Source of the DNA: a bacterium BRH_c32 | GTDB lineage: Bacteria; Bacteroidota; Ignavibacteria; Ignavibacteriales; Melioribacteraceae | Length of the DNA stretch: 64,000 nt | Assembly: GCA_001516025.1 (NCBI GenBank) | Contig: LOEU01000024.1 | Span: 186,001-250,000, forward strand | Reading direction: 5' to 3' | Shown: positions 2,038 to 60,102 of the stretch, one piece after another | Position numbering within the stretch: the first letter of the stretch is position 1 | Layout: each line of letters starts with the position of its first letter | Notes under the pieces: model-generated | The model's input: only the letters and a program-made list of their open reading frames with translations | What the model was told of the DNA's origin: nothing | Database searches by the model: none | Translations under genes and position numbers: made by a program

Positions 2038-2057
2038 ATTTTCTCACAGGTCATGCT

Positions 2058-6050: not shown

Positions 6051-6065
6051 AATAGGAAACAGAAA

Positions 6066-6473: not shown

Positions 6474-6515
6474 GAAAATAATTATTAGAATAATAAAGGA
6501 ACTTAAGGAGTTCAA

Positions 6516-8075: not shown

Positions 8076-8090
8076 GAGAAAAAAAAGACA

Positions 8091-9422
8091 ATGACAAAAT
8101 TAAAAATGAAACACGTATTATTAATTCTGATGCTTCCGATATTAATTGTTTTAGTTTCTTCATGTTCGATTGCCGAGAAGAAAACAAAAATAGAATTTGG
8201 ACTTGAAGTGGGTGAAACCTATTCAATCCAGATTTCTAATTCAATAAAGAGCAACGAAGAATTAGATAATACTATAATTAAGAAAGATGAAAAAGTTTTA
8301 GCTGGATTTTCATTTATTCCTACTTCAATATCACCTGAGGGTGAAATAAAATTAAAAGGATCAATTAATTTTATTGAAGTATTGAAAGAAGGGCCGCTCG
8401 GACAGATTGCATATAATTCTGAATTGGACAGCGCTGATATTCCACTGATGGCTAAACCATATTATAATATTCTTAACAAGGAGTTTTCGCTCAAGATATT
8501 AAAAGATGGGACGGTAAATGCGGTTTTTGGAATGGATTCGATAATCGCTCACGCAATGGATTATTTTGAAATAGAAGAACCCCAGCTTATTGATTATCTA
8601 AAAGAATCGTTAGAAAATCAATTTAGTAATGAAGTTCTATTTGAACAATTTGAAAGAATGTTCGCCGTATTTCCGACAAAACCGGTGGGAATTAATGATA
8701 CTTGGACAAAGAAAGTAAAACTAAGTGCAAAAACTCCATTTATAATAGATAATGAATATCGTTTATTAGAACGCAATAATGGTGTAGCAATAATATTAGT
8801 TAATTCAAGAATTGCTTCCGATAAAGATAGAATCAAAGCAAATCCAAGAAGATATATTGATCAAGATTTAGTAGGAACTCAAATCGGGAAAGTACAGATT
8901 GATGAGATAACAGGATGGATCGGCAGAGCTAAATTCGAGTATAAAATACATTCAACAAGAAGTAACGCACCTACAAAATTAAATGCAGGCGAACCGCTCT
9001 TAGTATTAAGTGAAATGGAGATTAAATACGAGCCATTTGCAAGCAGCAAATTCAAAGAAATTGCATTTACTCCCGATGCAGTACTAAAAGGCGATGGAAT
9101 TGGAATGACGCTTACAGGAATGGGAGTAGTATTTACTTCTTTAATTCTTCTTTATATTATTTTTTCTAATATGAAACGTGTAATAAATTTCCGATTTAAT
9201 TTTGGCAAAAAAGAGAAGGAAATAAATGCAGCTAAATTAAAAGAAATAGAAAAAGAAGAAGTGATGACCGGAGAAGTAAATGCGGCTATTGCGGCAGCAC
9301 TATTTTTCTTATCGCAAGAAATGCACGATACGGAAAATGCAGTATTAACAATTAAGAGAGCATCTAAAACATATTCGCCATGGAGTAGTAAGCTTTATGG
9401 TATCAGACAGAATCCAAGATAA
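8091..9422 (+). CDS. Lipoprotein domain fused to OadG/MmdD-like sodium-pump gamma/delta subunit
   Basis: A 443-residue protein with two clear parts. Residues 1-25 are a lipoprotein signal with lipobox V-S-S-C ending at Cys25. Residues 26 to about 325 are a beta-rich extracytoplasmic domain that resembles the DUF6263 type of Bacteroidota lipoproteins (a tentative match). Residues about 335-443 look like the small membrane subunit of Na+-pumping decarboxylases: a membrane helix near 340-362 beginning GMTLTGMGVVF, a charged linker, then AAIAAALFF, HDTENAVLTIKR and SPWSSK. The small subunit normally stands alone at about 80-120 residues and anchors the complex. Its place between the alpha and biotin-carrier genes (15-base gaps each side) supports membership of the pump. 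The fusion's role is unknown. Confidence 0.82.
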   Translation: MTKLKMKHVLLILMLPILIVLVSSCSIAEKKTKIEFGLEVGETYSIQISNSIKSNEELDNTIIKKDEKVLAGFSFIPTSISPEGEIKLKGSINFIEVLKEGPLGQIAYNSELDSADIPLMAKPYYNILNKEFSLKILKDGTVNAVFGMDSIIAHAMDYFEIEEPQLIDYLKESLENQFSNEVLFEQFERMFAVFPTKPVGINDTWTKKVKLSAKTPFIIDNEYRLLERNNGVAIILVNSRIASDKDRIKANPRRYIDQDLVGTQIGKVQIDEITGWIGRAKFEYKIHSTRSNAPTKLNAGEPLLVLSEMEIKYEPFASSKFKEIAFTPDAVLKGDGIGMTLTGMGVVFTSLILLYIIFSNMKRVINFRFNFGKKEKEINAAKLKEIEKEEVMTGEVNAAIAAALFFLSQEMHDTENAVLTIKRASKTYSPWSSKLYGIRQNPR

Positions 9423-44123: not shown

Positions 44124-46532
44124 TTGAATAGCACAGAAGAAAAATCAATAAGTGAAAAGCTTGTCTGTTATCATTGCGGAGATAACTGCCCCGACGATAA
44201 AATTCATATCGACAATAAAATATTTTGCTGCAATGGATGCAAAAGTGTTTTTTCGATATTGAATAATAATGATATGTGCACTTATTATTCTATCTCCGAT
44301 GCGCCGGGAATAAACAAGAAAGATGAAAATAAAAGGAATTACGATTTTTTAGATGACCCAGATATTAAAACAAAATTTGTAGATATTAGTGATGATAGAA
44401 TTTCAAAAGCAATATTTTCAATTCCCCAGATGCATTGCAGTTCTTGTATTTGGATTTTAGAAAACTTAAATAGATTAGACAATGATATACTTTCTTCACA
44501 GGTTAATTTTCTTCAAAAATCACTCTCGGTTACATACAACAATAAGACATCCCTAAAAAAAATTGTTACGTTATTAGATTCTATCGGCTATGAGCCTTTA
44601 CTAAATTTGGAAGAAAAACGAGATTCAAAAAACAGTAGTGAATTAAGGAAGTTATATTATAAAATCGGGATAGCTGGGTTTTGTTTTGGAAATATAATGA
44701 TGCTAAGTTTCCCCGAATATTTATCAATCTCTCCACAGGATTCGGCAGGTCTCGATACACTTTTTAATTACTTAAATATTCTCCTCTCAATCCCCGTATT
44801 TTTTTATAGTGGGTCGGAATATCTTATTTCTGCATATAAGAGTCTAAAAAACAAAATTGTAAATATAGACGTGCCGATTGCATTGGGAATCATTGTGCTT
44901 TTCCTAAGAAGTTTAGTAGAAATAATTTTCTTTTCAAATGCCGGTTATTTAGACTCGATGACGGGTTTAGTTTTCTTTTTATTACTTGGGAAATTATTCC
45001 AAACCAAAACTTATGATGCATTAAATTTTGAACGTAATTATAAATCATACTTCCCTCTTGGAATAACAATAAGAAAAAACAATAGCGAAACAACAATACC
45101 GGTAGAAAAAATTGAAGTGGGAGATAGATTAATAATAAGAAATGGTGAACTTATACCTGTTGATTCTGTTTTGATAAAAGGGAATGGGACTATCGATTAT
45201 AGTTTTGTAACCGGAGAGGCATTACCGGTTAAAAAAGAACAAGGGGAAATAATTTATGCAGGAGGCAAGCAAACCGGCGGAGCTATCGAAATAGAGAGCA
45301 TTAAAGAGATTTCTCAAAGTTATCTTACGCGCCTTTGGAATAATAAAATATTTAGCAAGCAAAAAGAGATGAATAGCATCTCATTGGCAAATTATATTAG
45401 TAAATATTTTACTTTCATAGTTCTTGGTCTTGCAATTGTTTCTTCCGGTATTTGGATGTTTTATGATACTAATACAGCAATGAATGTTTTTACTGCTATC
45501 TTAATTGTAGCATGTCCATGTGCATTAGCATTGTCCACACCATTTACTTCGGGCAATGCTTTAAGAATAATGGGAAGAAATAATTTCTATCTACGCAATG
45601 TTGATCTAATAGAAGAACTAACAAAAATTACAGATATTGTTTTTGATAAAACCGGAACACTTACAATTTCCGGCAAGGCGAACATCAAATATGAAGGGAT
45701 GGAACTGACTACCAAGAAAAAATTTTTGATAAAAAGTGCCGTCAGAAATTCCACACACCCATTAAGTAAGATGATTTTTGACTACTTAGAAGGCCACTAT
45801 ATAATTATCGAAAAATTTGAAGAGATTGCAGGTGAAGGAATTTATGCGGAGATAAATCGTTCAACAATAAAATTAGGTTCTCTCCTTCTCGTTAATAAAG
45901 AAAAATTTGATATTAGCGGCGGCAATTCTGTAGTTCATTGCTCAATAAATGATGAATATATTGGTAAATTTATTATAAATAATTTCTATCGAGAGAATCT
46001 CACAAATTTGGCAAAAGAACTTAAAAGTAAATATAACATTCATGTTCTTTCGGGTGATAATAAATCAGAACATGAAAATCTAAAAAGGTTTTTTGGAAAT
46101 GATTCAATTTATTTATTTGACCAATCGCCTCAGGATAAACTTGATTATATCGCGGCACTTCAAAATGCGGATAAAAAAGTTTTGATGATGGGTGATGGAC
46201 TAAACGATGCAGGAGCATTGAGGCAGAGCGATATCGGGATATCGATAAGTGAGGATAAAAGTAATTTTTCTCCTTCATGTGATGGAATTTTGGAAGCGAA
46301 ATCTTTCGATCTTTTCACGAAATTTTTGAATTTTGCCATTTATAGCAAAAAAATAATAATAGCGAGTTTCATTATTTCATTTGTGTATAATTTTTTCGGT
46401 CTTTATTTTGCTATAAGTGGAAATTTAACTCCGATATTAGCAGCTATCTTAATGCCAATCAGTTCAATATCAATAGTTATTTTTACTACAACCGGTACTA
46501 ATTTATATGCAAAAAAGAGAGGATTAATTTAA
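44124..46532 (+). CDS. ccoI: Copper-translocating P-type ATPase for cbb3 oxidase assembly
   Basis: An 802-residue P1B ATPase of the CcoI/FixI type, moving copper across the inner membrane for the oxidase. The N-terminus has a cysteine cluster (Cys15, 18, 22, 35, 36, 39) followed by a heavy-metal domain with C105-x2-C108 (MHCSSC). The transport CPC motif is at 464-466 and the phosphorylated Asp508 lies in DKTGT, with GDGLNDAGAL near the end. No ATG is available before the conserved N-terminus, so the frame starts at TTG 44124; no strong ribosome binding site precedes it. Its stop overlaps the ccoS start as TAATG. Confidence 0.93.
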   Translation: MNSTEEKSISEKLVCYHCGDNCPDDKIHIDNKIFCCNGCKSVFSILNNNDMCTYYSISDAPGINKKDENKRNYDFLDDPDIKTKFVDISDDRISKAIFSIPQMHCSSCIWILENLNRLDNDILSSQVNFLQKSLSVTYNNKTSLKKIVTLLDSIGYEPLLNLEEKRDSKNSSELRKLYYKIGIAGFCFGNIMMLSFPEYLSISPQDSAGLDTLFNYLNILLSIPVFFYSGSEYLISAYKSLKNKIVNIDVPIALGIIVLFLRSLVEIIFFSNAGYLDSMTGLVFFLLLGKLFQTKTYDALNFERNYKSYFPLGITIRKNNSETTIPVEKIEVGDRLIIRNGELIPVDSVLIKGNGTIDYSFVTGEALPVKKEQGEIIYAGGKQTGGAIEIESIKEISQSYLTRLWNNKIFSKQKEMNSISLANYISKYFTFIVLGLAIVSSGIWMFYDTNTAMNVFTAILIVACPCALALSTPFTSGNALRIMGRNNFYLRNVDLIEELTKITDIVFDKTGTLTISGKANIKYEGMELTTKKKFLIKSAVRNSTHPLSKMIFDYLEGHYIIIEKFEEIAGEGIYAEINRSTIKLGSLLLVNKEKFDISGGNSVVHCSINDEYIGKFIINNFYRENLTNLAKELKSKYNIHVLSGDNKSEHENLKRFFGNDSIYLFDQSPQDKLDYIAALQNADKKVLMMGDGLNDAGALRQSDIGISISEDKSNFSPSCDGILEAKSFDLFTKFLNFAIYSKKIIIASFIISFVYNFFGLYFAISGNLTPILAAILMPISSISIVIFTTTGTNLYAKKRGLI

Positions 46533-46708
46533 TGTCCGTTATTATAGTACTAATTGGATTTAGTCTTCTTGTAGCAATTATTTTTTTAATACTCTTTATA
46601 CGAGCGGTAAAGAGCGGGCAATTTGATGATAAATATACACCCTCGATTCGGATTTTATTCGATGACGAGCCTAAGAAAGAAAAAGATAAAAAACATGGGA
46701 GCAGTTAA
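46532..46708 (+). CDS. ccoS: cbb3-type cytochrome oxidase maturation protein CcoS
   Basis: A 58-residue protein. One N-terminal membrane helix (about residues 3-24) is followed by the family signature GQFDDKYTPSIRILFDDE and a lysine-rich tail. CcoS is needed for cofactor (heme b/copper) insertion into the oxidase in other bacteria. Its ATG overlaps the ccoI stop, and its stop codon directly adjoins the ccoNO start (TAA-ATG), so it is translationally coupled on both sides. Confidence 0.93.
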   Translation: MSVIIVLIGFSLLVAIIFLILFIRAVKSGQFDDKYTPSIRILFDDEPKKEKDKKHGSS

Positions 46709-48835
46709 ATGAATGTAGAAAAATTCAGTTATGATAATAATATTGTCAGACTGTTCATATACGCATCATTGGTATTTGGATTTGTAGGTATGCTTGTAGG
46801 GCTAATAATGGCTATACAATTATATTATCCCGAATTAAATCTCGGCATATCATACACGACATTCGGAAGAATAAGACCACTACATACAAATGCTGTAATA
46901 TTCGCATTTGTAGGAAATATAATTTTTGCAGGAGTTTATTACTCATTGCAAAGACTAACAAAAGCAAGAATGTATAATGACTTCTTGAGCAAATTCCATT
47001 TCTGGGGATGGCAGACAATTATTGTAGCAGCCGCTATTACGTTGCCATTAGGATTAACTTCGAGCAAAGAATATGCTGAGCTTGAATGGCCTATTGATAT
47101 TGCTATTGCAATTGTGTGGTTGGTGTTTGGCGTTAATATGATAATGACAATTATCAAAAGACGTGAAGAACACATGTATGTTGCAATTTGGTTTTACATT
47201 GCTACATTTGTTACAGTTACAGTTCTGCATGTTGTCAATTCAATAGAAATTCCATTAACACTTTTTAAAAGTTATAGTGTTTATGCCGGAGTTCAAGATG
47301 CTCTAGTTCAATGGTGGTATGGGCATAACGCAGTAGCGTTTTTTCTTACCACTCCATATCTTGGTCTAATGTATTATTTTCTTCCAAAGGCGGCGAATCG
47401 TCCGGTATATTCATATCGATTATCGATTCTCCATTTTTGGGCACTAATTTTTTTATATATCTGGGCCGGTCCTCATCATTTATTATATTCAGCATTGCCT
47501 GATTGGGCACAATCTCTCGGTACAGTATTCTCAATAATGTTAATAGCTCCTTCGTGGGGTGGTATGCTTAATGGACTCCTTACTTTAAGAGGTGCTTGGG
47601 ATAGAGTAAGAACCGATCCGATTCTTAAATTTATGGTTGTTGCCGTAACTGCTTATGGTATGGCAACTTTTGAAGGTCCAATGCTTTCGTTAAGAGGTGT
47701 TAATGCAATAGCTCATTTCACTGATTGGATTGTTGCACACGTACATATCGGAGCATTAGGTTGGAATGGATTCTTAAGTTTTGGAATGCTCTATTGGATA
47801 GTACCAAGAATGTGGAAAACAGATCTTTATTCTAAAAAGTTGGCTAATCTACATTTCTGGATTGGAACTCTTGGAATAGTATTCTATTCAGTTCCGATGT
47901 ATTGGTCAGGAATTGCCCAAGCATTAATGTGGAAACAATTTACTCCGCTCGGAATATTGCAATATCCTAACTTTTTAGAAACTACATTACAAATAATTCC
48001 GATGCATATAATGAGGTCATTCGGTGGATTGCTTTATTTAACAGGTTTTATAATGATGATTTATAATTTAGCCGTTACAATAAAATTAGGAACATTCGTT
48101 AGAGATGAAGAAGCCGAAGCTGCTCCATTGATTAAGGTAAAGGACGAGTTTAAACGGGGCTTAATTCATAGATGGTTAGAAAAACGACCAATTAAATTTG
48201 CTCTTCTTTCTACGGTAGTTATTTTAATCGGTGGTGCAGTCGAATTTATTCCGACATATTTAGTAAAAAGCAATATACCGACTATCGCAAGCGTAAAACC
48301 ATATTCGCCACTTGAACTTCACGGCCGTGATATTTATATAAGAGAAGGATGTAATAACTGCCATTCACAACTTGTAAGACCATTTAGATCGGAGACAGAG
48401 AGATATGGTGAATATTCCAAAGCGGGAGAGTATGTTTATGATCATCCATTTTTATGGGGCTCAAAGCGTACCGGTCCGGATCTTCATAGAATAGGTGGTA
48501 AATATGGCAACTTATGGCATTTTATGCACATGGAAGATCCAAGGACTATGTCTCCCGGTTCAATAATGCCTCCCTATCCATGGCTTTATACAGAGAAATA
48601 TGATCGAGAACTTACTCCGAAAATGATAAGTGTAATGCGAACCCTTGGAGTTCCATATGAAGAAGGTTATGAAAAATTTGCTAATGATGATTTGGAACTT
48701 CAAGCGAAAAAGATTTCGGATGATCTGCTTCAAAGTGGAGCAGATGCTGATCCGGAGACTGATATTATTGCCTTAATAGCATATTTGCAGAGATTAGGTA
48801 CTGATATTAAATCCAAACCTTTGAACGGGAAATAG
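46709..48835 (+). CDS. ccoNO: cbb3 oxidase subunits I and II fused (CcoN-CcoO)
   Basis: A 708-residue fusion of the catalytic heme-copper subunit and the membrane-bound monoheme cytochrome c. Residues 1 to about 475 form the 12-helix CcoN part, with heme and copper ligand histidines in RPLHTNAV, WWYGHNAV, GPHHLLY and VAHVHIGALGWNG. A short linker and one more helix (about 495-515) lead to the CcoO part with heme motif C548-N-N-C551-H552 and MSPGSIMPPYPWL supplying the axial Met. It reduces O2 to water with high affinity. Fused CcoNO proteins occur in Bacteroidota. It is central to the operon from ccoI to the TauE-like gene. Confidence 0.95.
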   Translation: MNVEKFSYDNNIVRLFIYASLVFGFVGMLVGLIMAIQLYYPELNLGISYTTFGRIRPLHTNAVIFAFVGNIIFAGVYYSLQRLTKARMYNDFLSKFHFWGWQTIIVAAAITLPLGLTSSKEYAELEWPIDIAIAIVWLVFGVNMIMTIIKRREEHMYVAIWFYIATFVTVTVLHVVNSIEIPLTLFKSYSVYAGVQDALVQWWYGHNAVAFFLTTPYLGLMYYFLPKAANRPVYSYRLSILHFWALIFLYIWAGPHHLLYSALPDWAQSLGTVFSIMLIAPSWGGMLNGLLTLRGAWDRVRTDPILKFMVVAVTAYGMATFEGPMLSLRGVNAIAHFTDWIVAHVHIGALGWNGFLSFGMLYWIVPRMWKTDLYSKKLANLHFWIGTLGIVFYSVPMYWSGIAQALMWKQFTPLGILQYPNFLETTLQIIPMHIMRSFGGLLYLTGFIMMIYNLAVTIKLGTFVRDEEAEAAPLIKVKDEFKRGLIHRWLEKRPIKFALLSTVVILIGGAVEFIPTYLVKSNIPTIASVKPYSPLELHGRDIYIREGCNNCHSQLVRPFRSETERYGEYSKAGEYVYDHPFLWGSKRTGPDLHRIGGKYGNLWHFMHMEDPRTMSPGSIMPPYPWLYTEKYDRELTPKMISVMRTLGVPYEEGYEKFANDDLELQAKKISDDLLQSGADADPETDIIALIAYLQRLGTDIKSKPLNGK

Positions 48836-48843
48836 GGAGAATA

Positions 48844-49047
48844 ATGTTTTCAAAATATTTAACCGAAATAAAAGATGTATCGATATTCCCGATTTTAGTT
48901 CTCGTAGTTTTTTTTATAATGTTTATTTCTACAATATTTTGGGTGATAAAGCTAAGTAAAAACTATCGGGATAAAATGAAAAACCTCCCATTGCAGGAGG
49001 ACAAAAATTATTCAAATAATTCAGAGAATTTAAATGAAGACAAATAA
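48844..49047 (+). CDS. ccoQ: Small cbb3 oxidase subunit, CcoQ-like
   Basis: A 67-residue protein with one membrane helix (about residues 13-36) and a charged cytoplasmic tail rich in Lys, Asn and Glu. Size, topology and position between ccoNO and ccoP identify it as CcoQ/FixQ-like, a subunit that stabilises the oxidase; the sequence itself is weakly conserved. Its 3' end overlaps the ccoP start by 14 bases. Confidence 0.82.
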   Translation: MFSKYLTEIKDVSIFPILVLVVFFIMFISTIFWVIKLSKNYRDKMKNLPLQEDKNYSNNSENLNEDK

Positions 49048-49861
49048 AATAACAGGATTGATATTAGGAGTTTTCTTTTTCTTTACCGGCTCAATTAATT
49101 TATATGCGGCAGGAGAAGATAATTTAGACCAAGTAATGCAAACAATGATGATTATTACATTAGTTTTTGTTGTCGGTATTTTATTTCTGACTATTGTCTA
49201 TTCCGAAAAGAATGATAATGAAGGTAAAATTCTTTTACGTCCATTATCAGGATTTATGAAATGGCTTACAAAATCGACTCCAATAGAAAAAGAACAAGAA
49301 ATAATGTTCCATCACGATTTTGATGGAATAAAAGAATTAGATAATAAGATTCCACCGTGGTTTAATATCTTATTCTATGGTTCAATTATCTGGAGTGTGA
49401 TTTATATGTTTGTTTTTCACATTGCGGGCGATGGAAATATTCAAATTGCAGAATATCAATCTGAGATTCAAGCTGCGTCCACCGAAAGAGAAATCTTAAT
49501 TAAAACCGGCGCATTCTTAAATGAAGAAACAGTTACGATATTAACCGATGCACCCTCTTTATCGGAAGGCAAAGATATTTATCTAAAAAATTGCGCTTCA
49601 TGTCATGGCAATAATGGCGAAGGTATGGTTGGGCCTAATTTAACAGATAATTATTGGATTCATGGTGGTGATATTAAAAGTATTTTCAAAACAATTAAAT
49701 ATGGTGTTCCGGCAAAGGGAATGATTAGCTGGGAAACTCAGCTTGCACCTAAAAAGATGCAGGAAGTATCTTCTTATATAAAATCATTACATGGAACAAA
49801 TCCTGCTAATCCAAAAGCAGAAGAAGGGACATTATACGAAGAACCGGCAGAAGGTAATTAA
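49034..49861 (+). CDS. ccoP: cbb3 oxidase subunit III, CcoP, with a single heme c
   Basis: A 275-residue membrane cytochrome c. Three hydrophobic segments (about 6-24, 36-55 and 112-135) precede a single cytochrome c domain with C187-A-S-C190-H191 and a probable axial Met in PAKGMISW. The PPWFNILFYGSI stretch matches the FixP N-terminal domain. Classical CcoP has two c-type hemes; only one CxxCH is found here. It delivers electrons to the catalytic subunit. It lies between ccoQ (overlapping) and ccoG. Confidence 0.92.
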   Translation: MKTNKITGLILGVFFFFTGSINLYAAGEDNLDQVMQTMMIITLVFVVGILFLTIVYSEKNDNEGKILLRPLSGFMKWLTKSTPIEKEQEIMFHHDFDGIKELDNKIPPWFNILFYGSIIWSVIYMFVFHIAGDGNIQIAEYQSEIQAASTEREILIKTGAFLNEETVTILTDAPSLSEGKDIYLKNCASCHGNNGEGMVGPNLTDNYWIHGGDIKSIFKTIKYGVPAKGMISWETQLAPKKMQEVSSYIKSLHGTNPANPKAEEGTLYEEPAEGN

Positions 49862-49866
49862 TAATT

Positions 49867-51276
49867 ATGGCACTTGATATTCACGGAGATGAAGAACGCT
49901 TTAGAGATTCTCTGGCTACTATGACTAAGGAAGGTAAAAGGAATTGGATTTATCCTAAAAAACCTTCCGGTAAATATTATAATGCAAGAACATTAGTAAG
50001 TATCGTTCTATTAATACTTCTATTTGCTATTCCTTTTATAAAAATTAATGGACATCCGCTTTTAATATTAAATATTCTCGAAAGAAAATTTATTATTTTC
50101 GGAATACCGTTCGGTCCGCATGATTTCCATCTATTCGGACTGGCAATGATCTCGATAATTGTTTCGATTTTTTTATTTACAGTTGTCTATGGTAGAATTT
50201 TCTGTGGGTGGATTTGTCCGCAGACAATATTCCTCGAAATGGTATTCAGAAAAATCGAATACTTTATCGAAGGGGACGCAAATAAGCAGAGAGCTTTAAA
50301 TAAAGCTCCGATGGATAAAAATAAATTCTTTAAGAAATCTTCGAAGCATCTTATCTTTTTTACACTCTCCTTTCTTATATCCAATATATTTCTATCTTAC
50401 ATAATTGGAATGGATCAATTACTTAAAATAGTTACTTCACCACCATCAGAACATCTTGGCGGCTTTATATCAATACTGATTTTTTCAGGAATTTTTTATT
50501 GGGTTTTTTCATATTTCAGAGAGCAGGCTTGTACTCTTGTATGTCCTTATGGTAGGCTTCAGGGCGTGATGCTTGATCCTAATTCAATAGTAATTGCTTA
50601 TGATAATATACGAGGAGAACCAAGAGGAAAGATTAGAAAGAATGAAGTTACGAATAATGGCGATTGTATTGACTGCTATTTGTGTGTTGACGTATGTCCC
50701 ACAGGAATTGATATAAGAAACGGGACTCAGCTTGAATGCGTTAATTGCACTGCATGCGTGGATGCATGCGATGATGTAATGGAGAAAGTTAAGCGTCCAA
50801 AAGGTTTGATCCGATATGCTTCTAAGAATGAAATTGATACAGGGAAAAGGAAATTATTTACTCCGCGATCTATCAGTTATACTGTCGTTCTTCTAATTTT
50901 AGTATCACTTACATCGTACTTACTTATTACAAGGTCGGATGTGGAACTAAGCATTCTGAGAACTCCGGGACTTCTTTATCAGGAGCAACCCGATGGAAGA
51001 ATCAGTAACCTTTATGATATGAAAATAGTAAACAAAACATTTAATACGATTCCTGCCTCATTGGCACTAACTAATATTCCAGGTGCGGAGATTAAGTTAA
51101 TCGGGAACCAACTTAATGTCGGTTCGCAAGAAGTAAGAGAAGCAAAATTTTTCGTAATTATTCCTCGTAACTTAGCAAATAAATTAAGAACAAAATTAGA
51201 GATAGAAGTTATTTCTAACGGTAAAGTATTAGATGTAATAAAAACTTCATTCTTGGGGAAGGTTGACAAAAAATGA
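49867..51276 (+). CDS. ccoG: cbb3 oxidase accessory ferredoxin-like protein CcoG
   Basis: A 469-residue membrane iron-sulfur protein of the FixG/RdxA family, implicated in copper reduction or oxidase assembly. About five membrane helices carry the CGWICPQ and CTLVCPYG motifs. Two 4Fe-4S sets follow: C267, C270, C273 and C277 and then C291, C294, C297 and C301. The C-terminal 120 residues form an Ig-like domain after a last helix. Its stop overlaps the ccoH start by four bases (ATGA). Confidence 0.94.
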   Translation: MALDIHGDEERFRDSLATMTKEGKRNWIYPKKPSGKYYNARTLVSIVLLILLFAIPFIKINGHPLLILNILERKFIIFGIPFGPHDFHLFGLAMISIIVSIFLFTVVYGRIFCGWICPQTIFLEMVFRKIEYFIEGDANKQRALNKAPMDKNKFFKKSSKHLIFFTLSFLISNIFLSYIIGMDQLLKIVTSPPSEHLGGFISILIFSGIFYWVFSYFREQACTLVCPYGRLQGVMLDPNSIVIAYDNIRGEPRGKIRKNEVTNNGDCIDCYLCVDVCPTGIDIRNGTQLECVNCTACVDACDDVMEKVKRPKGLIRYASKNEIDTGKRKLFTPRSISYTVVLLILVSLTSYLLITRSDVELSILRTPGLLYQEQPDGRISNLYDMKIVNKTFNTIPASLALTNIPGAEIKLIGNQLNVGSQEVREAKFFVIIPRNLANKLRTKLEIEVISNGKVLDVIKTSFLGKVDKK

Positions 51277-51713
51277 AATTAAATTGGGGTTCTGGTATAG
51301 CAATTACTTATATTCTTTTTATGGTGGCTGTGATAATATTAGTGGTTATTTTTATGAATCAAGATGTTCATTTAGTTACAGATGATTATTATGCTAAAGA
51401 AATAGAATATCAACAACAGATAGATAAAGTGAAGAGAACCAAATTATTAAATGAACAGCCGGAGGTTACTTTTAATAATGGTGTTTTTATGGTGTCGTTT
51501 CCCAGAAGTGTTAAAAACATTATAAATGGTGAGATTCAGATTTACCGTCCATCGGATTCTAATTTAGATAAAACGGTAGAAATAATACTTGATGCCGAAA
51601 ATCGTCAATCAATTGAACCACCAATCAATAAACCGGGATTGTGGAAAGTTAAAATGGATTGGATGCGAAACGATACAAATTACTATAACGAAAAAATAAT
51701 TTTAAGTAATTAA
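51273..51713 (+). CDS. ccoH: cbb3 oxidase assembly protein CcoH/FixH
   Basis: A 146-residue protein with one N-terminal membrane helix (residues 8-28) and a periplasmic beta-rich FixH domain. The DDYYAKEIEYQQQIDK stretch after the helix and the final PGLWKVKMDW motif fit the family. In other bacteria CcoH is needed for assembly and stability of the oxidase. It overlaps ccoG by four bases and is followed 4 bases later by the TauE/SafE-like gene. Confidence 0.9.
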   Translation: MKLNWGSGIAITYILFMVAVIILVVIFMNQDVHLVTDDYYAKEIEYQQQIDKVKRTKLLNEQPEVTFNNGVFMVSFPRSVKNIINGEIQIYRPSDSNLDKTVEIILDAENRQSIEPPINKPGLWKVKMDWMRNDTNYYNEKIILSN

Positions 51714-51717
51714 TAAA

Positions 51718-52440
51718 ATGGAAATTTGGTCAGCATTTATAGTTGGATTAATCGGAAGTGTTCATTGCATTGGAATGTGTGGACCGATTGCTTTTGCAAT
51801 TCCATTCAGCGGTGATAACCGAATTAAATTTTTCTTAAGCCGCGTGCTATATAATCTCGGAAGAATAGTTACTTATTCTTTTTTTGGTTTAATTTTCGGA
51901 TATCTTGGCAGTAGAGTTGTATTATATGGATTGCAACAGGATATATCAATAGTTATCGGAGCATTGATAATACTTTATGTATTAATGCCCCGCAGGATAA
52001 AAAACAAAATATCTGCCACTTCTTATTATATGAAAATTGTCGGTTCGATTAGAGGCTACTTCAATAAATTGATCCAAAAGAAAAGTTATTCTTCATATTT
52101 GGGTATAGGAATCATAAATGGGTTCCTTCCTTGCGGGTTTGTTTATGTTGGAATAGCGGGAGCAATATCCACCGGTTCCGGATTATCAGGTGCTGCATAT
52201 ATGATGCTATTTGGATTAGGAACTTTTCCGATAATGTTCGCTGCAACATTCTTAGGCTCTGCCATAAATCTTAAAATTCGTAAAAAAATAAATAAGTTAA
52301 TTCCCGCTCTTGCATTAATACTTGGACTATTATTTGTATTGAGAGGATTAAATTTAGGCATTCCATATATAAGTCCAAAATTTAATCATCCGACTGCATC
52401 AAGCGATCCGAATCATCCGCATGTTGAGGATTGTCACTAA
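51718..52440 (+). CDS. TauE/SafE-like membrane protein linked to cbb3 oxidase assembly
   Basis: A 240-residue membrane protein with about six helices. The N-terminal GSVHCIGMCGPIAFAIP is typical of the small COG2836 type found next to cbb3 genes. The middle has GFLPCGFVYVGIAGA, repeating the cysteine motif. The C-terminus is rich in His (PNHPHVEDCH), which suggests metal handling. Copper or sulfur transport for oxidase assembly is an inference from context. It ends the cbb3 operon; an 82-base spacer follows. Confidence 0.85.
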   Translation: MEIWSAFIVGLIGSVHCIGMCGPIAFAIPFSGDNRIKFFLSRVLYNLGRIVTYSFFGLIFGYLGSRVVLYGLQQDISIVIGALIILYVLMPRRIKNKISATSYYMKIVGSIRGYFNKLIQKKSYSSYLGIGIINGFLPCGFVYVGIAGAISTGSGLSGAAYMMLFGLGTFPIMFAATFLGSAINLKIRKKINKLIPALALILGLLFVLRGLNLGIPYISPKFNHPTASSDPNHPHVEDCH

Positions 52441-52522: not shown

Positions 52523-53761
52523 ATGCTAAATGAAATCATAAAAAATAGTGAAGGTTATGTTTTTGATCTTCTAAGAAAAGAAAGCAAACCGGAAAAACAA
52601 TATCATAATCTTTCTCACACTTTAGATGTAATAAAATATTCGCAAATAATCGGAAGCTCAGAGAATTTATCCGGTGAGGATTTGGAAATACTAAATATAG
52701 CAGCGGCTTTTCATGATCTCGGTTATATATTTATCGATGAAGGGCATGAAGAAAAAAGTGCTTCGATGGCTATTGAATTTCTAAAATCGCAAAGCTATCC
52801 CCAAGATAAAATCAATAAAGTAAAACAATGCATCCTCTCTACAAAAGTGCCTCAAAAGCCAAAGAATCATTTAGAAGAAATTTTGTGCGATGCGGATTTG
52901 AATCATATCGGAAGTAAAAACTTTTTTGAAAAAAATGATCTCTATCTCGCAGAGCTTAATTCAGATCATAGAAAAAATATTTCTGAAATTGATTGGATAG
53001 AATCGACTCTTAAATTCGTTACAGGTCATAAATTTTTTACTCAATACGCAAAAGATAATTTTGAAGAGCAAAAAGAAAAAAATATAAAAAAATTAAAGAA
53101 GCAATTAAAAAAAAAGATTGAAAAAGGAGTTGAGAAATTAGAAGAAAAAAATGACGAATTAGCTGAAGAAAATAAGATTAAGAGTAAAATTGGATTAGGA
53201 AAAGGAGCAGAGCGCGGAGTTGAAACAATGTTCAGAAATGTAATGAGAACTCACGTGGAATTTAGTGGAATGGCTGATAACAAAGCCAACATAATGATAA
53301 GCGTAAATACACTCGTTCTTACTGTTATATTTGCCGTCATGGTACGTAAATTGGATTCTAATCCACATCTGATTATCCCGACCTTATTATTAATTGGTTT
53401 TTGTTTAGTTGCATTAATTTTTGCCGTAATGGTTACAAGACCAAACGTAACCGAAGGTATTTTTACAAAAGATGATATACATAATAAAAAAGCTAATTTA
53501 CTATTTTTCGGTAATTTTTTTAATATGGAGTTAAATGATTTTGAGTGGGGTATGAAGGAATTGATAAATGACAGGAATTTTCTTTATTCTACAATGATTA
53601 ATGATTTTTACCATCTTGGTCAAGTTTTAGGAAGAAAATATAAATATTTACGAATTTGCTATAATGTTTTTATATTTGGATTCATTATTTCAGTTATTGC
53701 TTATACGATAGCAATAATTTATGCGCCAACAACAACTCAAATCGGACCATTTTTAGAATAA
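52523..53761 (+). CDS. HD phosphohydrolase fused to a Pycsar-effector-type membrane domain
   Basis: A 412-residue protein. Residues 1-175 are an HD domain with His32 (NLSH), His64-Asp65 (FHDLGY), His75 and Asp123 or Asp125 (CDAD) as metal ligands, so it should be catalytically active. Residues about 180-225 are a Lys/Glu-rich coiled coil. Residues about 235-405 match the Pycsar effector membrane domain (formerly DUF5706): THVEFSGMADNKANIM before helix 1 (258-275), helix 2 (283-304) ending TRP, a cytoplasmic segment and helix 3 (380-400). PycTM effectors disrupt the membrane when activated by cyclic pyrimidine nucleotides. Here no cyclase gene is next to it. SixA follows 2 bases after its stop. 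Whether it is a defence effector or a housekeeping signalling protein is open. Confidence 0.85.
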   Translation: MLNEIIKNSEGYVFDLLRKESKPEKQYHNLSHTLDVIKYSQIIGSSENLSGEDLEILNIAAAFHDLGYIFIDEGHEEKSASMAIEFLKSQSYPQDKINKVKQCILSTKVPQKPKNHLEEILCDADLNHIGSKNFFEKNDLYLAELNSDHRKNISEIDWIESTLKFVTGHKFFTQYAKDNFEEQKEKNIKKLKKQLKKKIEKGVEKLEEKNDELAEENKIKSKIGLGKGAERGVETMFRNVMRTHVEFSGMADNKANIMISVNTLVLTVIFAVMVRKLDSNPHLIIPTLLLIGFCLVALIFAVMVTRPNVTEGIFTKDDIHNKKANLLFFGNFFNMELNDFEWGMKELINDRNFLYSTMINDFYHLGQVLGRKYKYLRICYNVFIFGFIISVIAYTIAIIYAPTTTQIGPFLE

Positions 53762-54262: not shown

Positions 54263-55087
54263 TTATTTTGTTTTCTTATAAGTAGTTAGATAAGAATTTT
54301 TTCCGGCGGCTTCGTCGCTTATAACTAAAGTTCCATTATTAGAAATTGCAATCCCTTCCGGCTGCACATGATAATTATTTAATTTTATTTTATTAATAAC
54401 CTTCCCCTGACGTGATATTTCAATAAGTCCGCGACTTTTCCCGCCAAGAACTAGAATATTTCCGCTCTCCATTAATGTAATTCCGGATGGCTTAAAATCA
54501 GAAACAAAATCATTTAATTCATTTTTCTTAATAAGGATATACGGTTCATCTATTAATTTATTATTATCAAGAGCAAATCGATAAATTGCCTTTACATTTT
54601 TTAGTTTTTTGCCCGGAGATTCTTTGCAAGATAAGAGGAGCGAATTTGTTTCTCTGTCATAGACGATTCCTTCGATATCATTTTTAGGGCTAAGGGGAGT
54701 GGAATATTCTTCAAATTGAACTTTTTCATTATTTTTTCCTTCTTTGAATTTAAGGATTGCTCCTGAACTTGAAACCAAATAAAAATATCCTTTTGCAAAA
54801 GCGATATCTTCAAAATCTCCTTTTAATAATGATTCACCAATAAAAAACTTCTTAATAATTTGCCCGGAACTAATATCTAATTGATAGATAATCCCTGCTT
54901 CATCAGTATGGCAAAATAAATTGCCGGCATCAGAGAATGTTAATCCCGATATTTCATTTAGCTCTTTGCTTAGCTTAATTTGTTCCCCACCTGAGAAATC
55001 AAAATTATTCATAACTTTTTTCTGTCCGCAATTTGTTGAAGTAAAAAGTAATATAAAAAATATAAGAATCAGTTTTTTTTGCATCAT
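54263..55087 (-). CDS. SdiA-regulated-type beta-propeller lipoprotein
   Basis: A 274-residue protein. An N-terminal hydrophobic stretch ends at Cys20 in FTSTNC; Asn at the -1 position is unusual for a lipobox, so lipidation is likely but not certain. The rest resembles the SdiA-regulated/YjiK propeller family: NEISGLTFSDAGNLF, GDFEDIAFAKG, NDIEGIVYDRE, PSGITLMESGN and QPEGIAISNNGTLVISDE at regular spacing. The role of this family is not known to me beyond this fold. Confidence 0.8.
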   Translation of the reverse strand: MMQKKLILIFFILLFTSTNCGQKKVMNNFDFSGGEQIKLSKELNEISGLTFSDAGNLFCHTDEAGIIYQLDISSGQIIKKFFIGESLLKGDFEDIAFAKGYFYLVSSSGAILKFKEGKNNEKVQFEEYSTPLSPKNDIEGIVYDRETNSLLLSCKESPGKKLKNVKAIYRFALDNNKLIDEPYILIKKNELNDFVSDFKPSGITLMESGNILVLGGKSRGLIEISRQGKVINKIKLNNYHVQPEGIAISNNGTLVISDEAAGKNSYLTTYKKTK

Positions 55088-55156: not shown

Positions 55157-56170
55157 ATGAAAAATAGTGTTTTTTTTGTTTTAATAATATTTCTTGCACT
55201 AATGAATATAAGTGCACAAAAAAATGACAAAGTAGAATTTTCCGGCTATGGCAAAGGAGGATATACATTCTATAATAGAAATATCCTTAATGGCTATAAT
55301 CAAGAAGCTTATTATGAAGGGAAAGTGCAATTAGATATCAATTTTAATAAAAGAATCGAAGGGCAATTGGATTTTAGGGGCAACTCGTTGGATAATGCCG
55401 TTAAGCTAAAAGAATTTTCTATCAAACTAAAAATTAGTGATAAGTTCCGACTTCAATTCGGAAATATTAAGAAGCCATTTGGATTGGAGTATTTAGTTTC
55501 TGACGAAGACCTAATCCAAATCAATCGAAGCTACCTTCAAGAGGCAGTAGCCGAATTAGGATATGGTGGAAGGAGCATGAGTATAATGGCATATTATAAA
55601 TACGATGATAAGGAACCGGAATTCCCTATTTCTTATAATTTTTCGTTGTTCAAAGATAATTCCCTTTTTTATGGAGCCATCGCAAGAATAAAATATCATT
55701 TTGGAAAGTATGGAGTCGGCGCTACTTATGAATATGAACATAAAGGAGGCGAAAATAAAATCTCTGCAAACGGATACGGACTTCATGCATTTTACGAAAG
55801 CGATGAATTCAATGCAATGACAGAGCTATTTTATGTTCAAGATCCGTTTGAAAGTATTAGGCAAAGATTAATGAATAAAAATGAAAAGGTCTTTGGGTTG
55901 GGAGGGAAAATATTTGTAGCATATAAATTTGATTATGACTATGAATTTCTGAAAGGATTAGAACCATTCATCCTTTCGAATATTTTTATCCCGAATCAAG
56001 ATATATCGGGTAATAATGTAATTCAAATGGTAACCGGCATTAATTATTATCTTCATAAAGATGTGAAGCTAAGGTTAAACGGTGATTTAAGACTTACAAA
56101 AAATCAATTCAATATCGAGCATACGACTGACGATTCAAGAATAATATTAGAACTCCAAATGAGATATTAA
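55157..56170 (+). CDS. Outer-membrane porin, OprO/OprP-like
   Basis: A 337-residue protein with a signal peptide (cleavage after NISAQ, near residue 20). The mature part alternates hydrophobic and polar residues as in a beta barrel and ends in Tyr after an aromatic-rich strand, as outer-membrane proteins do. The stretch FRLQFGNIKKPFGLEYLVSDEDL is typical of phosphate-selective porin O/P family members. Phosphate specificity cannot be claimed from sequence alone, but the next two genes encode a CotH-type kinase and a phosphatase. Its stop overlaps the CotH start (TAATG). Confidence 0.82.
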   Translation: MKNSVFFVLIIFLALMNISAQKNDKVEFSGYGKGGYTFYNRNILNGYNQEAYYEGKVQLDINFNKRIEGQLDFRGNSLDNAVKLKEFSIKLKISDKFRLQFGNIKKPFGLEYLVSDEDLIQINRSYLQEAVAELGYGGRSMSIMAYYKYDDKEPEFPISYNFSLFKDNSLFYGAIARIKYHFGKYGVGATYEYEHKGGENKISANGYGLHAFYESDEFNAMTELFYVQDPFESIRQRLMNKNEKVFGLGGKIFVAYKFDYDYEFLKGLEPFILSNIFIPNQDISGNNVIQMVTGINYYLHKDVKLRLNGDLRLTKNQFNIEHTTDDSRIILELQMRY

Positions 56171-57288
56171 TGAAAAATTCTGCATTAATAATTTTGTTTT
56201 TATCATTTGTTTCCTGCTCCGAGAATCTTATTGAGCCGATTGTCGATCCTAATCTCTTAAATCAAATGAATATTGTCCTCACCGAAGAGGAATATTTAGC
56301 GTTATTAAATAATAAGCTATTTGATTTCCAGGCGAATGGTAGGCTTGAATATAAAGGTATAGTATTTGATATTGAAATTGAAGCTCAAGGTGCAGGCTCT
56401 CGATATTATAATAAATGGTCTTATCATGTTAAACTGAAAAATGGCAATAGAATAAAAAATCTAGCCGAATTTAATCTAAGTGCACAAAATTTCGATAAGA
56501 CAATGATGAGTACTTTACTCGCTTCGCATCTTTACAAAAGAGCAGGATTTCCCGTCTTTGAATCAAATCATGTTTTTGTAAATCTAAACGGGAAAAGTTA
56601 TGGATTGTATTTGTTAATTGAGAAGGTGGACGAAAATTTTTTTTCGCAAAGAAATATGAGCATTTATGAACTTATTAAATTAGGTTTCGATTCTAAGTTT
56701 ACTTTCTCCGATGAGTACAATACACAATTCTATTTTGATAAAGAGATACCGGAAGACAATAACTACAATTCTTTAAATGAATTTATTCATGCTCTAGATA
56801 CTGCACGGATTGAGATATTAGAAGAATCATTAAAGCCATATTTAGATGTTCGTAATTATTTAGACTATCATGCAATGACTTTTATTATTAATAATATTGA
56901 TGCCTTTTCAAATAATTTTTTTCTTTATAGAAAGAAAGCAAATAAGCCGTTTGAGATAATTCCTTGGGATTTTGATAAAGCCTTTACCAAAAATCAAAGC
57001 ATCGGACTATTTGAAGGTAACGAGATAATTAAAAAACTAATCCTTAATATTGATCTGAAAGATTATTATTTGAGGAGGATCGAATTTTTCTTAGAGAATT
57101 ATTTTACCGAAGAAGAGCTATTTCCGATTATTGATGTTGCGGCAGAGCGGATAAAAGACGGTTATAATCTCGATCCATATCTTGGTGGTTTGGGCAATGA
57201 TTTTTCTACTGAAATTAGTGAATTAAAAAATTATATTAAATATAGGAAAACAAGTTTAACACAAATTATAAGAGAAAACCTGAATTGA
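56170..57288 (+). CDS. CotH-family kinase-like lipoprotein
   Basis: A 372-residue protein. The signal ends in a lipobox with Cys16 (FVSC). The CotH kinase fold shows EAQGAGSRYYNKWSYHVKL near residues 75-93, YGLYLLIEKVDENFF and the metal motif PWDFDKAF near residue 272. Bacterial CotH proteins phosphorylate proteins, and relatives are often linked to exopolymer or phosphate functions; this one is probably anchored in a membrane facing the periplasm or outside. It is translationally coupled to the porin before it and the PAP2 phosphatase after it. Confidence 0.85.
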   Translation: MKNSALIILFLSFVSCSENLIEPIVDPNLLNQMNIVLTEEEYLALLNNKLFDFQANGRLEYKGIVFDIEIEAQGAGSRYYNKWSYHVKLKNGNRIKNLAEFNLSAQNFDKTMMSTLLASHLYKRAGFPVFESNHVFVNLNGKSYGLYLLIEKVDENFFSQRNMSIYELIKLGFDSKFTFSDEYNTQFYFDKEIPEDNNYNSLNEFIHALDTARIEILEESLKPYLDVRNYLDYHAMTFIINNIDAFSNNFFLYRKKANKPFEIIPWDFDKAFTKNQSIGLFEGNEIIKKLILNIDLKDYYLRRIEFFLENYFTEEELFPIIDVAAERIKDGYNLDPYLGGLGNDFSTEISELKNYIKYRKTSLTQIIRENLN

Positions 57289-58133
57289 AAATAGTCTTAT
57301 TTTTAGTTTTGGTTGCAATAATCATATTTCTATACGCAAGCAAAACAGATGCGCAACAAAGCAATAATAAATTTATTGAAACTACTTCCAATATTTCTGA
57401 AGCAATAATTTCCTCGGTTAATTATTATGATATCCCTATTGGAGCAGCTTTCTTCTATCGCAATAGCATTAAAAGAAGTTCCTTAAATGACATATTCACT
57501 ATCTCTCCATTTGGATTTGATCATGAAGTAAATGAAAGTGTTTCTATTAACGGAAATCATTCTATGGGTAGTATGGATAAGGATATCATTCCACGCACTC
57601 TATTTTTTTCACGTTTAGCTATTACTACCGGACTAAATCTTTTCACTGATCTCGAAATTACTCCTAAAGAATATCAGAAAATATTTCTTATGCAGAAATC
57701 CATCATCTATACTTATACAGCTACAGAAATTGTAAAAAATTTAGTAAGAAGAGACAGACCAGACGGATCAGATACGCAGAGTTTTTTTAGCGGACATACG
57801 GCTAATACCTTTGCTGCTGCTACATTTCTTCATTTAGAACTCTTCGACCTCTATGATGAATGGGATTTGGCAAAAGAAAACCCCATTTTTAATAGTGCTC
57901 TTCGAACTACCACTTTTTCGGTACTTTATGGATGGGCAGGTTACGTCGGTTATAGCCGGCTTAGAGATAATAAGCATTATCTTTCTGATGTCGTTATTGG
58001 TGCAGCTGTAGGATCTCTTATTTCATATTTTCTATATGATTCTTATTTCGGAAAAGAAAGCACACCATTTGATATGATATCCTTATCCTCAAATGGCAAG
58101 CAGGTTGGATTAGCGCTGAATATTACTTTTTAA
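57285..58133 (+). CDS. PAP2 family phosphatase, exported
   Basis: A 282-residue protein with an N-terminal signal or anchor (residues 2-18). It has the three PAP2 motifs: KNLVRRDRPDG, SFFSGHTANTF and GYSRLRDNKHYLSDVVIG, giving the vanadium-haloperoxidase-type active site. It removes phosphate from lipid phosphates or similar substrates. The start is a TTG overlapping the CotH stop (TTGA). Its stop shares TTAA with the converging C39-like gene. Substrate unknown; the operon partners suggest phosphate chemistry outside the cytoplasm. Confidence 0.87.
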   Translation: MKIVLFLVLVAIIIFLYASKTDAQQSNNKFIETTSNISEAIISSVNYYDIPIGAAFFYRNSIKRSSLNDIFTISPFGFDHEVNESVSINGNHSMGSMDKDIIPRTLFFSRLAITTGLNLFTDLEITPKEYQKIFLMQKSIIYTYTATEIVKNLVRRDRPDGSDTQSFFSGHTANTFAAATFLHLELFDLYDEWDLAKENPIFNSALRTTTFSVLYGWAGYVGYSRLRDNKHYLSDVVIGAAVGSLISYFLYDSYFGKESTPFDMISLSSNGKQVGLALNITF

Positions 58134-58966
58134 TAGATCTTATACATTCCATATTTACCGCATGCATACATCATTAATAAAGCTGCAATATCGATTGCAG
58201 CACGCTTTTCATTCTTCTCAGGGATGACAAGATCATAAAGCTCTGCTACAAATTTCAAATTCAAGAGTATTTTTTTTAATTCGGCATAAGAAGGTTCGCC
58301 ATGCCAATTGGCAACTCGATGAATTAAATTATTTTCGTTACGGCGAAGAAATTCAGAAAAGGTTATTATTTTATTTTTTTGTTTTGTTCTCGGCTGGCAT
58401 ACATATATTAAGTCATTCGTATATTTATCCCAATCTTTTGCTAAATCTTTGTTCTTATCGTACATAACTATTTTTGCTTTTTTAGGAGTAAATCGAGCTC
58501 GTGTATGAACATTGAATTTAGGAACAAGAGCATAACCATCATAACTTTTAATCTTTGATTCTTTATCGAAGTACCTCCAAAGACGCATTAATTGATTATC
58601 TGATTGGACAGAGATAACCTTATCTTGTTCGCTATCGATTACAACAAAATGTCCTTTTTGATAACTGACAACTGTGCACCAATGCTCCCAATTCTTAACG
58701 CTCAAGATACATGGAGAACCATTTTTCAATTCTTGAATTAATATTTTTTTCGCTTCATCGGGTTCGTTTGATTGGAAATGTTTCAGTTTGCAATTGAAAT
58801 GACGTGCAGCTCTAGCTAACCCGATTTCATCGGTGCCCGACCACCAATTGCTACCTGCAATTATTCCGATCTCGTCTTCTTTTTTAAAAACTCCAAGCAT
58901 CACCAATGCATATTTTAATGCAAATGGTCCGCACTGATATTTATTTGGTTGAGGATAAAAACTCAT
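58130..58966 (-). CDS. C39-like cysteine peptidase
   Basis: A 278-residue protein with no signal peptide. The N-terminal 150 residues match peptidase C39-like domains, with Cys12 in YQCGPFALK, His95 in WEHWCTVV and Asp111 in FVVIDSEQ as the triad. The C-terminal half (about 150-278) is helical and unlike the ABC-linked bacteriocin peptidases. It is divergent from an ATP-grasp ligase gene, 92 bases apart. The pair suggests peptide bond formation and cleavage on a common substrate, which is inference only. Confidence 0.78.
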   Translation of the reverse strand: MSFYPQPNKYQCGPFALKYALVMLGVFKKEDEIGIIAGSNWWSGTDEIGLARAARHFNCKLKHFQSNEPDEAKKILIQELKNGSPCILSVKNWEHWCTVVSYQKGHFVVIDSEQDKVISVQSDNQLMRLWRYFDKESKIKSYDGYALVPKFNVHTRARFTPKKAKIVMYDKNKDLAKDWDKYTNDLIYVCQPRTKQKNKIITFSEFLRRNENNLIHRVANWHGEPSYAELKKILLNLKFVAELYDLVIPEKNEKRAAIDIAALLMMYACGKYGMYKIY

Positions 58967-59006
58967 AATGACCTGAAGTAAATCTTCAACAAAAATAGTA
59001 AATCTT

Positions 59007-59039
59007 TTGATAAGCCATACAAAATTGTTAACTTTTAGA
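59007..59039 (+). promoter_or_regulatory. Candidate Bacteroidota-type promoter (TTTG-N19-TAACTTTTAG)
   Basis: TTTG at 59007-59010, a 19-base spacer and TAACTTTTAG at 59030-59039, 19 bases before the ATP-grasp ATG. It fits the -33/-7 promoter layout of Bacteroidota apart from the last base of the -7 box. Confidence 0.45.
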
Positions 59040-59058
59040 AAAAAATTTTGAAGAATAA

Positions 59059-60102
59059 ATGAAAGTTGCGGTCGTATTTAATGAAGCGTATCCGGAGATA
59101 AAAGATGCGTACGAAACTCATATTCCAAAGGAATTGGGTTTTAAACCTTATTTTGCAATTACTGAATATGACCCGATAAATGAATACGAATCGATCGCAG
59201 CAGCATTAAGAAAAGGAGGAATTGAAGCCTATATTCTTAATGTAATGGACGACTTAAATATTTTCATAGAAGACTATCAAAAAAACAAACCTGATGTAAT
59301 ATTCAATTTAGTAGAGATATTTAAAGACCAGCCTCGGCTCGAAACTGCATTCACGGGATTATTTGAATTAATGGAGATTGCTTATACCGGAGCTCCGCCA
59401 TTGGCTTTAGCAACTTGCCAAAATAAAACACTCACTAAAAGAATAGTAAGTGCATTTGGAATCCGCACTCCCAGATTCAAATTTATAGATGAACTTAAGA
59501 GTTCGTATAAGCACGGATTGCACTATCCCGTAATCGTGAAGCCTGCTTGGGAAGATGCAAGTGTAGGAATTGAGAATGAATCGATAGTAATGAATCATTA
59601 CGACCTTATTAAAAGAATCGAATATGTTTTTAGTGAATATAAACAACCGGTATTATTAGAAGAGTTCATTCAAGGAAGAGAATTGAATGTTGCAGTATTC
59701 GGTGATAAAGAACCTAAGGCATTACCAATAAGTGAAATCGATTTTAGTAAAATGCCGGCGCATCTTTATAATATCGTAAGTTACCAAGCTAAGTGGGATC
59801 CGTTTCACGAAGCATATCATAAGACTATCCCGATATGCCCCGCCAAGCTTAGCAATAAGACAAGAAAAGAAGCCGAAAAGATGGCAATCGCATGCTTTAA
59901 GGCAATGGGATGTAGAGATTATGCACGGATAGATATGAGGCTTTCTAAGAACGATGGTCTGCTATATGTATTAGAAGTGAATCCAAATCCCGATCTTACT
60001 GAAGATGCCGGATTGATGCGCTCATCAAGACAGGGTGGATTATCTTATAGGAAGACATTAAAAAAAATTGTTGAGTTTGCTTATCAAAGAAGTAAAAAGT
60101 AA
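59059..60102 (+). CDS. ATP-grasp ligase, D-alanine--D-alanine ligase-like
   Basis: A 347-residue ATP-grasp enzyme. Visible are the N-terminal Rossmann-like part (FNLVEIF, YTGAPPLALATCQNKTLTK), the ATP-binding YPVIVKPAWEDASVGI, the hinge LLEEFIQGRELNVAVF and the metal site RIDMRLSKNDGLLYVLEVNPNPDL. It resembles Ddl but lacks context for peptidoglycan synthesis: no mur genes adjoin it and the substrate loop differs. It may join amino acids or peptides. A C39-like peptidase gene is divergent from it. It adjoins the DUF1289 gene on the opposite strand with no gap. Confidence 0.85.
   Translation: MKVAVVFNEAYPEIKDAYETHIPKELGFKPYFAITEYDPINEYESIAAALRKGGIEAYILNVMDDLNIFIEDYQKNKPDVIFNLVEIFKDQPRLETAFTGLFELMEIAYTGAPPLALATCQNKTLTKRIVSAFGIRTPRFKFIDELKSSYKHGLHYPVIVKPAWEDASVGIENESIVMNHYDLIKRIEYVFSEYKQPVLLEEFIQGRELNVAVFGDKEPKALPISEIDFSKMPAHLYNIVSYQAKWDPFHEAYHKTIPICPAKLSNKTRKEAEKMAIACFKAMGCRDYARIDMRLSKNDGLLYVLEVNPNPDLTEDAGLMRSSRQGGLSYRKTLKKIVEFAYQRSKK

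Follow-up and report, generated by a model that had tools for sequence, protein, structure and literature searches.

An HD domain fused to a PycTM membrane domain in Bacteroidota, and its links to class III cyclases

The PycTM domain, which together with the cyclase PycC makes up the Pycsar system, is known as a cell-killing anti-phage effector. PycTM effectors have been reported to disrupt membranes upon activation by cyclic pyrimidines (PMC11224242). Among HD hydrolases, YpgQ of Bacillus subtilis, the closest characterised bacterial fold relative of the HD domain described here, is a (d)NTP pyrophosphohydrolase (PMC8177086), and the plant YpgQ-like HD protein BDPDE1 hydrolyses cAMP and cGMP (PMC8431786), so that the HD fold permits either activity. 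In this study we analysed a 64,000-nucleotide stretch (the window) of the genome of bacterium BRH_c32 (Melioribacteraceae), in which one gene combines an HD domain with a PycTM domain. In the open-access literature, a scope outside which most subscription journals lie, we found no paper on HD-PycTM fusions or on a PycTM family outside defence.

Architecture and conservation of the fusion protein

The reading frame of the fusion is open and complete (Table 1). A Pfam scan at E 0.01 found two domains only: HD (PF01966) at residues 30–125 (E 9.5e-8; 32.8 bits, cut-off 22) and PycTM (PF18967) at residues 275–386 (E 9e-34; 116.5 bits, cut-off 27.2). The PADLOC models for PycTM and for CBASS 2TM effectors both match residues 241–401. 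Hydropathy places the hydrophobic segments at about 254–277, 279–310 and 375–405, and residues 180–228 of the linker are 53% K+E. In the AlphaFold2 model the HD domain is all-helical and confident, residues 174–220 form one long helix and the C-terminal helices are long, with a pLDDT of 91.5 for the PycTM domain. The preliminary description of this DNA had claimed an intact HD metal site, a charged coiled coil and a C-terminal domain of the Pycsar effector type. All three are borne out, the first by the Pfam HD match and the conservation described below, the second by the K/E-rich helix, and the third by the strong PycTM match obtained when the C-terminal domain was compared with profiles of the Pycsar effector family in Pfam and PADLOC.

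Table 1. Features of the HD-PycTM locus (window positions)
Feature	Position	Strand	Details
HD-PycTM fusion gene	52523..53761	+	412 aa, complete
HD domain, residues 1-170, YpgQ-like fold	52523..53032	+	Pfam HD, conservation in 84 relatives, PDB fold matches
HD domain residues			Y27-H28-N29xxH32, H64-D65, H75-E76, D123, D125, H128
K/E-rich helical linker, probable coiled coil, residues 174-220	53042..53182	+	AlphaFold2 helix, K+E content
PycTM domain, residues 229-402, three hydrophobic segments	53207..53728	+	Pfam PF18967, PADLOC, hydropathy, model
SixA-like histidine phosphatase, 165 aa	53764..54261	+	2 nt downstream of HD-PycTM, probable same operon; conserved order
SdiA-regulated-domain protein, beta-propeller type, convergent	54263..55087	-	PF06977 1.5e-14; linked to PycTM genes in many relatives
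Phosphate-selective porin O/P-like protein	55157..56170	+	PF07396 1.2e-5

In an alignment of 84 full-length relatives, the HD residues H28, D123 and D125 do not vary; 82 of the sequences have H32, and H64 and D65 are each found in 83. The PycTM domain has invariant residues as well (D252, K254, A255 and P307), which suggests that it does more than anchor the protein. The fold of the HD domain matched 2pq7 (E 3.5e-4) and YpgQ (5dqw, E 2.3e-3) best in the PDB, with probability 1.00 and just 16–19% identity; weaker matches were Trypanosoma brucei PDE-B1, PDE1B and PDE10A, and also Ppx/GppA. In the viral fold library the significant matches were phage HD hydrolases. Profile matches to phosphodiesterases (PDEs) of the PDB reached E 0.19–1.4 only, the Pfam scan of the protein gave no PDEase_I match that would place it among class I cyclic nucleotide PDEs, and a PDB sequence search with the single protein returned nothing significant. 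We considered H28 as a class I PDE signature and rejected it, since YpgQ/YedJ-like sequences carry a histidine at the same place and the YHNxxH motif is therefore not diagnostic. A search of the PDB with the model of the PycTM domain gave no match below E 0.2; hence it is sequence profiles that tie the domain to Pycsar effectors.

Linkage of PycTM to class III cyclases

The preliminary description stated that the gene has no neighbouring cyclase. This holds for the window, where no class III cyclase is encoded, but not for the genome, which has three PF00211 matches elsewhere and includes an orthologue of the cyclase that adjoins PycTM genes in relatives. This 653-aa protein (G000:C24:49389-51350) is encoded on the same contig, ~187 kb from the HD-PycTM gene.

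In relatives, PycTM is found both fused to class III cyclases and next to them. Cyclase-PycTM fusions in a single ORF occur in five genomes of one clade (L126, L127, L128, L171, L172; one confirmed by Pfam). In family f33, to which these fusions belong (clades are given by such family labels, and ORFs were called mechanically), a gene for PycTM alone may also adjoin one whose ~650-aa product carries a class III cyclase domain at its N terminus (L122, L173, L174), and in the 23 f33 genomes with both genes these lie within 3 kb of each other in 14 and within 12 kb in 19. At locus L175 four genes of the same orientation follow one another at intervals of 148, 77 and 31 nt: a metallophosphoesterase-barrel protein (MPE, 1391-5128), a cyclase (5277-7241), PycTM (7319-7957) and an HD protein (7989-8603) that is 39% identical to the HD domain of the window over 180 aa. 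Within the order to which the window belongs, the ~650-aa cyclase is present in 11/14 genomes with PycTM versus 1/26 without core PycTM (Fisher p about 2e-6, uncorrected for shared descent or genome size); the single exception (G236) has an HD-only gene beside the cyclase. The median number of class III cyclases in the order is 4 in PycTM genomes and 1 in the others. For the full fusion, a class III cyclase lies within ~12 kb in 8/62 genomes by hand tally, against 0.6 expected, again uncorrected for descent and genome size.

A PF00211 cyclase is lacking in 25/62 genomes with the full fusion, some of which consist of one contig (G170, G057, G103, G326, G210, G095). Those cyclase-free genomes that were checked (L138, L140, L142, L143, L144, L153) retain an intact HD site, and so do HD-only genes. 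Hence a class III product is not an obligatory ligand everywhere, and the HD domain has a use without a class III cyclase. This leaves two options, a ligand that varies from lineage to lineage or a core function other than the cyclase link. We also aligned the cyclases of the window's genome (L157, L155, L156) with the linked cyclases of relatives. The linked cyclases depart from the canonical residues at the positions that determine the base, with Gln at the usual Lys in most as read from the alignment, and an assignment of base preference was rejected as not interpretable. The CHASE2 cyclase of the window's genome has Lys at the adenine-reading position, where PycTM-linked cyclases mostly have Gln.

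The explanation that we favour, with a probability of roughly 45%, is that HD-PycTM is a nucleotide receptor in the membrane that carries its own hydrolase and cooperates with cyclases encoded in trans. The C-terminal PycTM domain would sit in the inner membrane and sense a nucleotide signal. The likeliest signal would be a cyclic mononucleotide produced by class III cyclases whose genes lie at other sites in the genome, with the 653-aa protein introduced above, which joins a cyclase to TolB-like and TPR parts, as the best candidate source. The cytoplasmic HD domain might hydrolyse the signal or a close relative of it and so end or limit the response. The idea of a built-in off switch, already raised in the preliminary description, gains support from the cyclase-PycTM fusions, the PycTM-cyclase operons and the L175 run; degradation by the HD domain itself stays a prediction from sequence.

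Neighbourhoods, distribution and alternative explanations

The gene for a SixA-like protein was correctly described as starting 2 bases after the HD-PycTM stop. It is not the unusual companion it had been taken for, however, as it directly follows the gene in most Ignavibacteria relatives, HD-only versions included. The His_Phos_1 match (3e-10) places its product in the histidine phosphatase superfamily, and with 55.7 bits it lies below the cut-off (74.5) of the NCBIfam sixA equivalog. Genes that recur at 81 loci, which represent the closest relatives and not a random sample, are MPE (55), SdiA-regulated-domain genes (53), PPK1 (29), SixA (25) and class III cyclases (20); within 8 kb at 129 loci the counts are 87 for MPE, 65 for SdiA-type, 35 for PPK1, 27 for SixA and 29 for cyclases, with 5 more fused. 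The possibility that the gene keeps company with conserved housekeeping genes, named in the preliminary description as evidence against its reading of the gene, is partly realised: relatives adjoin SixA, PPK1, metallophosphoesterase and SdiA-regulated-domain genes, none of them a defence gene. The window keeps SixA, the SdiA-type gene and the O/P-type porin of this neighbourhood, and from its sequence and ORF list relative L034 has such a porin at the same place. A search of the window's own genome (94% complete assembly) gave no match to MPE, and its PPK1 is located away from the HD-PycTM locus. Six loci (L115-L120) carry HD-only genes with intact sites directly before SixA, and at L134 HD and PycTM are two separate, overlapping genes followed by SixA and PPK1.

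Several further observations come from reading the sequences. The MPE of ~1240 aa (L153 10501-14214 and homologues) reads as a calcineurin-like phosphoesterase, followed by a CotH-like kinase motif (GDWDRHxxQWRW, PRDRDQ) and, at the C terminus, by an outer-membrane barrel, of which Pfam called Metallophos only. Upstream of HD-PycTM in the window, the genes at 44124-52440 look like those of a cbb3 oxidase cluster (copper P-type ATPase, a 708-aa CcoN-CcoO fusion, CcoP, CcoG, a CcoH-like protein and a DsbD_2 protein, the last checked by profile and the others by reading); a gap of 83 nt separates the cluster from HD-PycTM, which has the same orientation, and parts of the cluster also lie upstream of HD-PycTM in L006, L017, L021, L030 and L034. 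Downstream, genes for the porin O/P-like protein, a CotH-kinase-like protein and a PAP2 phosphatase (55157-58133) lie end to end on one strand or share a few bases, and possibly form one operon. At 58130-60102 a C39-like peptidase gene on the minus strand adjoins a 347-aa gene on the opposite strand that reads like an ATP-grasp ligase. In L129, L130 and L177 an HD-less PycTM gene is followed by one for an MBL-fold hydrolase of the RNase Z/cyclic-nucleotide PDE superfamily, in L129 with a receiver-cyclase gene behind both. We do not take these neighbours as proof that one kind of PDE has replaced another, because RNase Z and PDE models give them similar scores, far below cut-off.

Much of this setting could also be accounted for by a membrane-tethered YpgQ-like hydrolase of (d)NTPs, alarmones, dinucleotides or another phosphorylated metabolite, with PycTM as anchor or oligomeriser and the cyclases incidental. 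The gene would then belong to a phosphate- or polyphosphate-related locus with SixA, PPK1, the metallophosphoesterase, the SdiA-regulated-domain protein and phosphate porins, the O/P-type porin of the window among them. The fusion genomes without class III cyclases, the HD-only genes before SixA, the predominance of MPE, SdiA-type and PPK1 genes over cyclases at the 129 loci and the closest HD folds (2pq7 and YpgQ, with Ppx/GppA weakly) are all consistent with such an enzyme, and we regard it as a real, if lesser, possibility. However, it leaves unexplained the cyclase-PycTM fusions, the operons, the L175 run and the co-occurrence with the 650-aa cyclase; the invariant PycTM residues suggest more than an anchor, and of the supposed phosphate locus MPE was not found in the window's genome and PPK1 lies elsewhere. 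We therefore favour the membrane receptor with its own hydrolase over the tethered metabolic enzyme.

A role in defence is best judged from the distribution of the family. A scan of public genomes yielded 295 relatives, and the 80 best were retained. Of the 393 genomes scanned from the phylum, the HD-PycTM protein has a match in 187 and PF18967 one above cut-off in 155, mostly with one copy per genome; PycTM-domain proteins are normal chromosomal genes in about 40% of the sampled Bacteroidota genomes. Many of the strongest matches cover both domains (390–460 codons), a second class consists of PycTM alone (about 190–300 codons), and some members of the family of the window's genome have HD alone. 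The relatives are chromosomal across Bacteroidota/Ignavibacteria; a search of 50,697 phage records gave no match, and one of 72,556 plasmid records gave two. A PycTM tree of 71 rows broadly follows taxonomy, with the window protein among Ignavibacteria, and the HD-PycTM label changes 5 times on it, compared with 22.7 in shuffles. Locus L158 of the same phylum (4885-6560) reads as a Pycsar-like pair, with a receiver-type class III cyclase of 346 aa and a 186-aa PycTM 75 bp apart; this PycTM forms a very long branch whose exact placement is unsure.

That HD-PycTM is an active anti-phage effector of the Pycsar type, served by a pyrimidine cyclase in trans and kept from self-activation by its HD domain, appears improbable to us. 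It would agree with the clear PycTM match in Pfam and PADLOC, with the candidate cyclases in the genome and with a weak match of PADLOC PycC models to the fused cyclase of L128 (6e-7). Against it stand the broad, usually single-copy distribution with its taxonomic tree, the near absence from phage and plasmid records, the lack of any PADLOC match at 1e-5 among eight window neighbours and the separateness of true-looking Pycsar pairs (L158) in the phylum. Less probable still is that HD degrades a cyclic dinucleotide such as c-di-AMP that PycTM reads, which would explain conservation without class III cyclases and would fit the existence of HD-type c-di-AMP PDEs (PgpH; PMC8177086) and a gene between HD-PycTM and SixA in L018 (9314-10327) whose sequence looks like that of a K+ channel with an RCK-type domain, but Porphyromonas gingivalis, also of the Bacteroidota, has its own PgpH-type protein (PMC9259658) and the genomic links are to mononucleotide-type class III cyclases. 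The gene order of L018 is common to L013, L022, L024 and L025, one Ignavibacteria group.

The preliminary description had also offered a signalling relative that has left defence. Signalling outside defence does fit better, given the wide chromosomal spread, the taxonomy-like tree, the near absence from phages and plasmids and the lack of defence neighbours; that the protein has left defence cannot be claimed, as the data do not give the direction of change. The stable chromosomal gene across Bacteroidota and its ties to cyclases suggest a signalling system with a housekeeping role, related to that used in defence. More tentatively, Bacteroidota may possess a chromosomal cyclic-nucleotide system outside defence, in which a class III cyclase and a PycTM membrane receptor, variously fused or split, are joined by a hydrolase of the HD type or, in other lineages, perhaps of the MBL type. 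Its PycTM family would share a common origin with the PycTM effectors of Pycsar, and HD-PycTM would be a receptor that destroys its own signal. If the domain does serve a physiological signal, this would explain why PycTM genes are conserved without an adjacent cyclase, and it would provide a tractable cyclic-nucleotide receptor in a phylum where such receptors are little studied, as well as a way to trace the relationship between a defence system and a housekeeping pathway. Meanwhile, normal chromosomal PycTM-domain proteins may get labelled as parts of defence systems.

Comparison with described systems

The MBL phosphodiesterases of the Apyc1/YhfI type resemble the MBL-fold proteins found beside HD-less PycTM, which possibly take the role of HD; these neighbours match both RNase Z and cyclic-nucleotide PDE models far below cut-off. 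Class I cyclic-nucleotide PDEs (PDE1, PDE10, T. brucei PDE-B1) share the YHNxxH...HD...D layout and weak fold and profile matches, whereas the Pfam scan of the HD-PycTM protein gave no match to PDEase_I. With the YpgQ-like HD hydrolases (B. subtilis YpgQ 5dqw, 2pq7, plant BDPDE1) the protein shares the fold and the H...HD...D site, its metal ligands (H32, H64, D65, D123) being kept in 82–84 of 84 relatives; those enzymes are not fused to PycTM, and sequence identity in the fold matches is only 16–19%. CBASS 2TM effectors are matched by PADLOC models over the same region but consist of the membrane domain only, without HD. Compared with Pycsar, the window gene has no cyclase beside it (the nearest on the contig being ~187 kb away), has an added HD domain, and is chromosomal and broadly conserved outside any defence setting instead of patchy, mobile and defence-associated. 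What it shares with Pycsar is the effector domain itself, with its ADNKA and TRP motifs, and the PycTM of its relatives is fused to or stands beside a class III cyclase.
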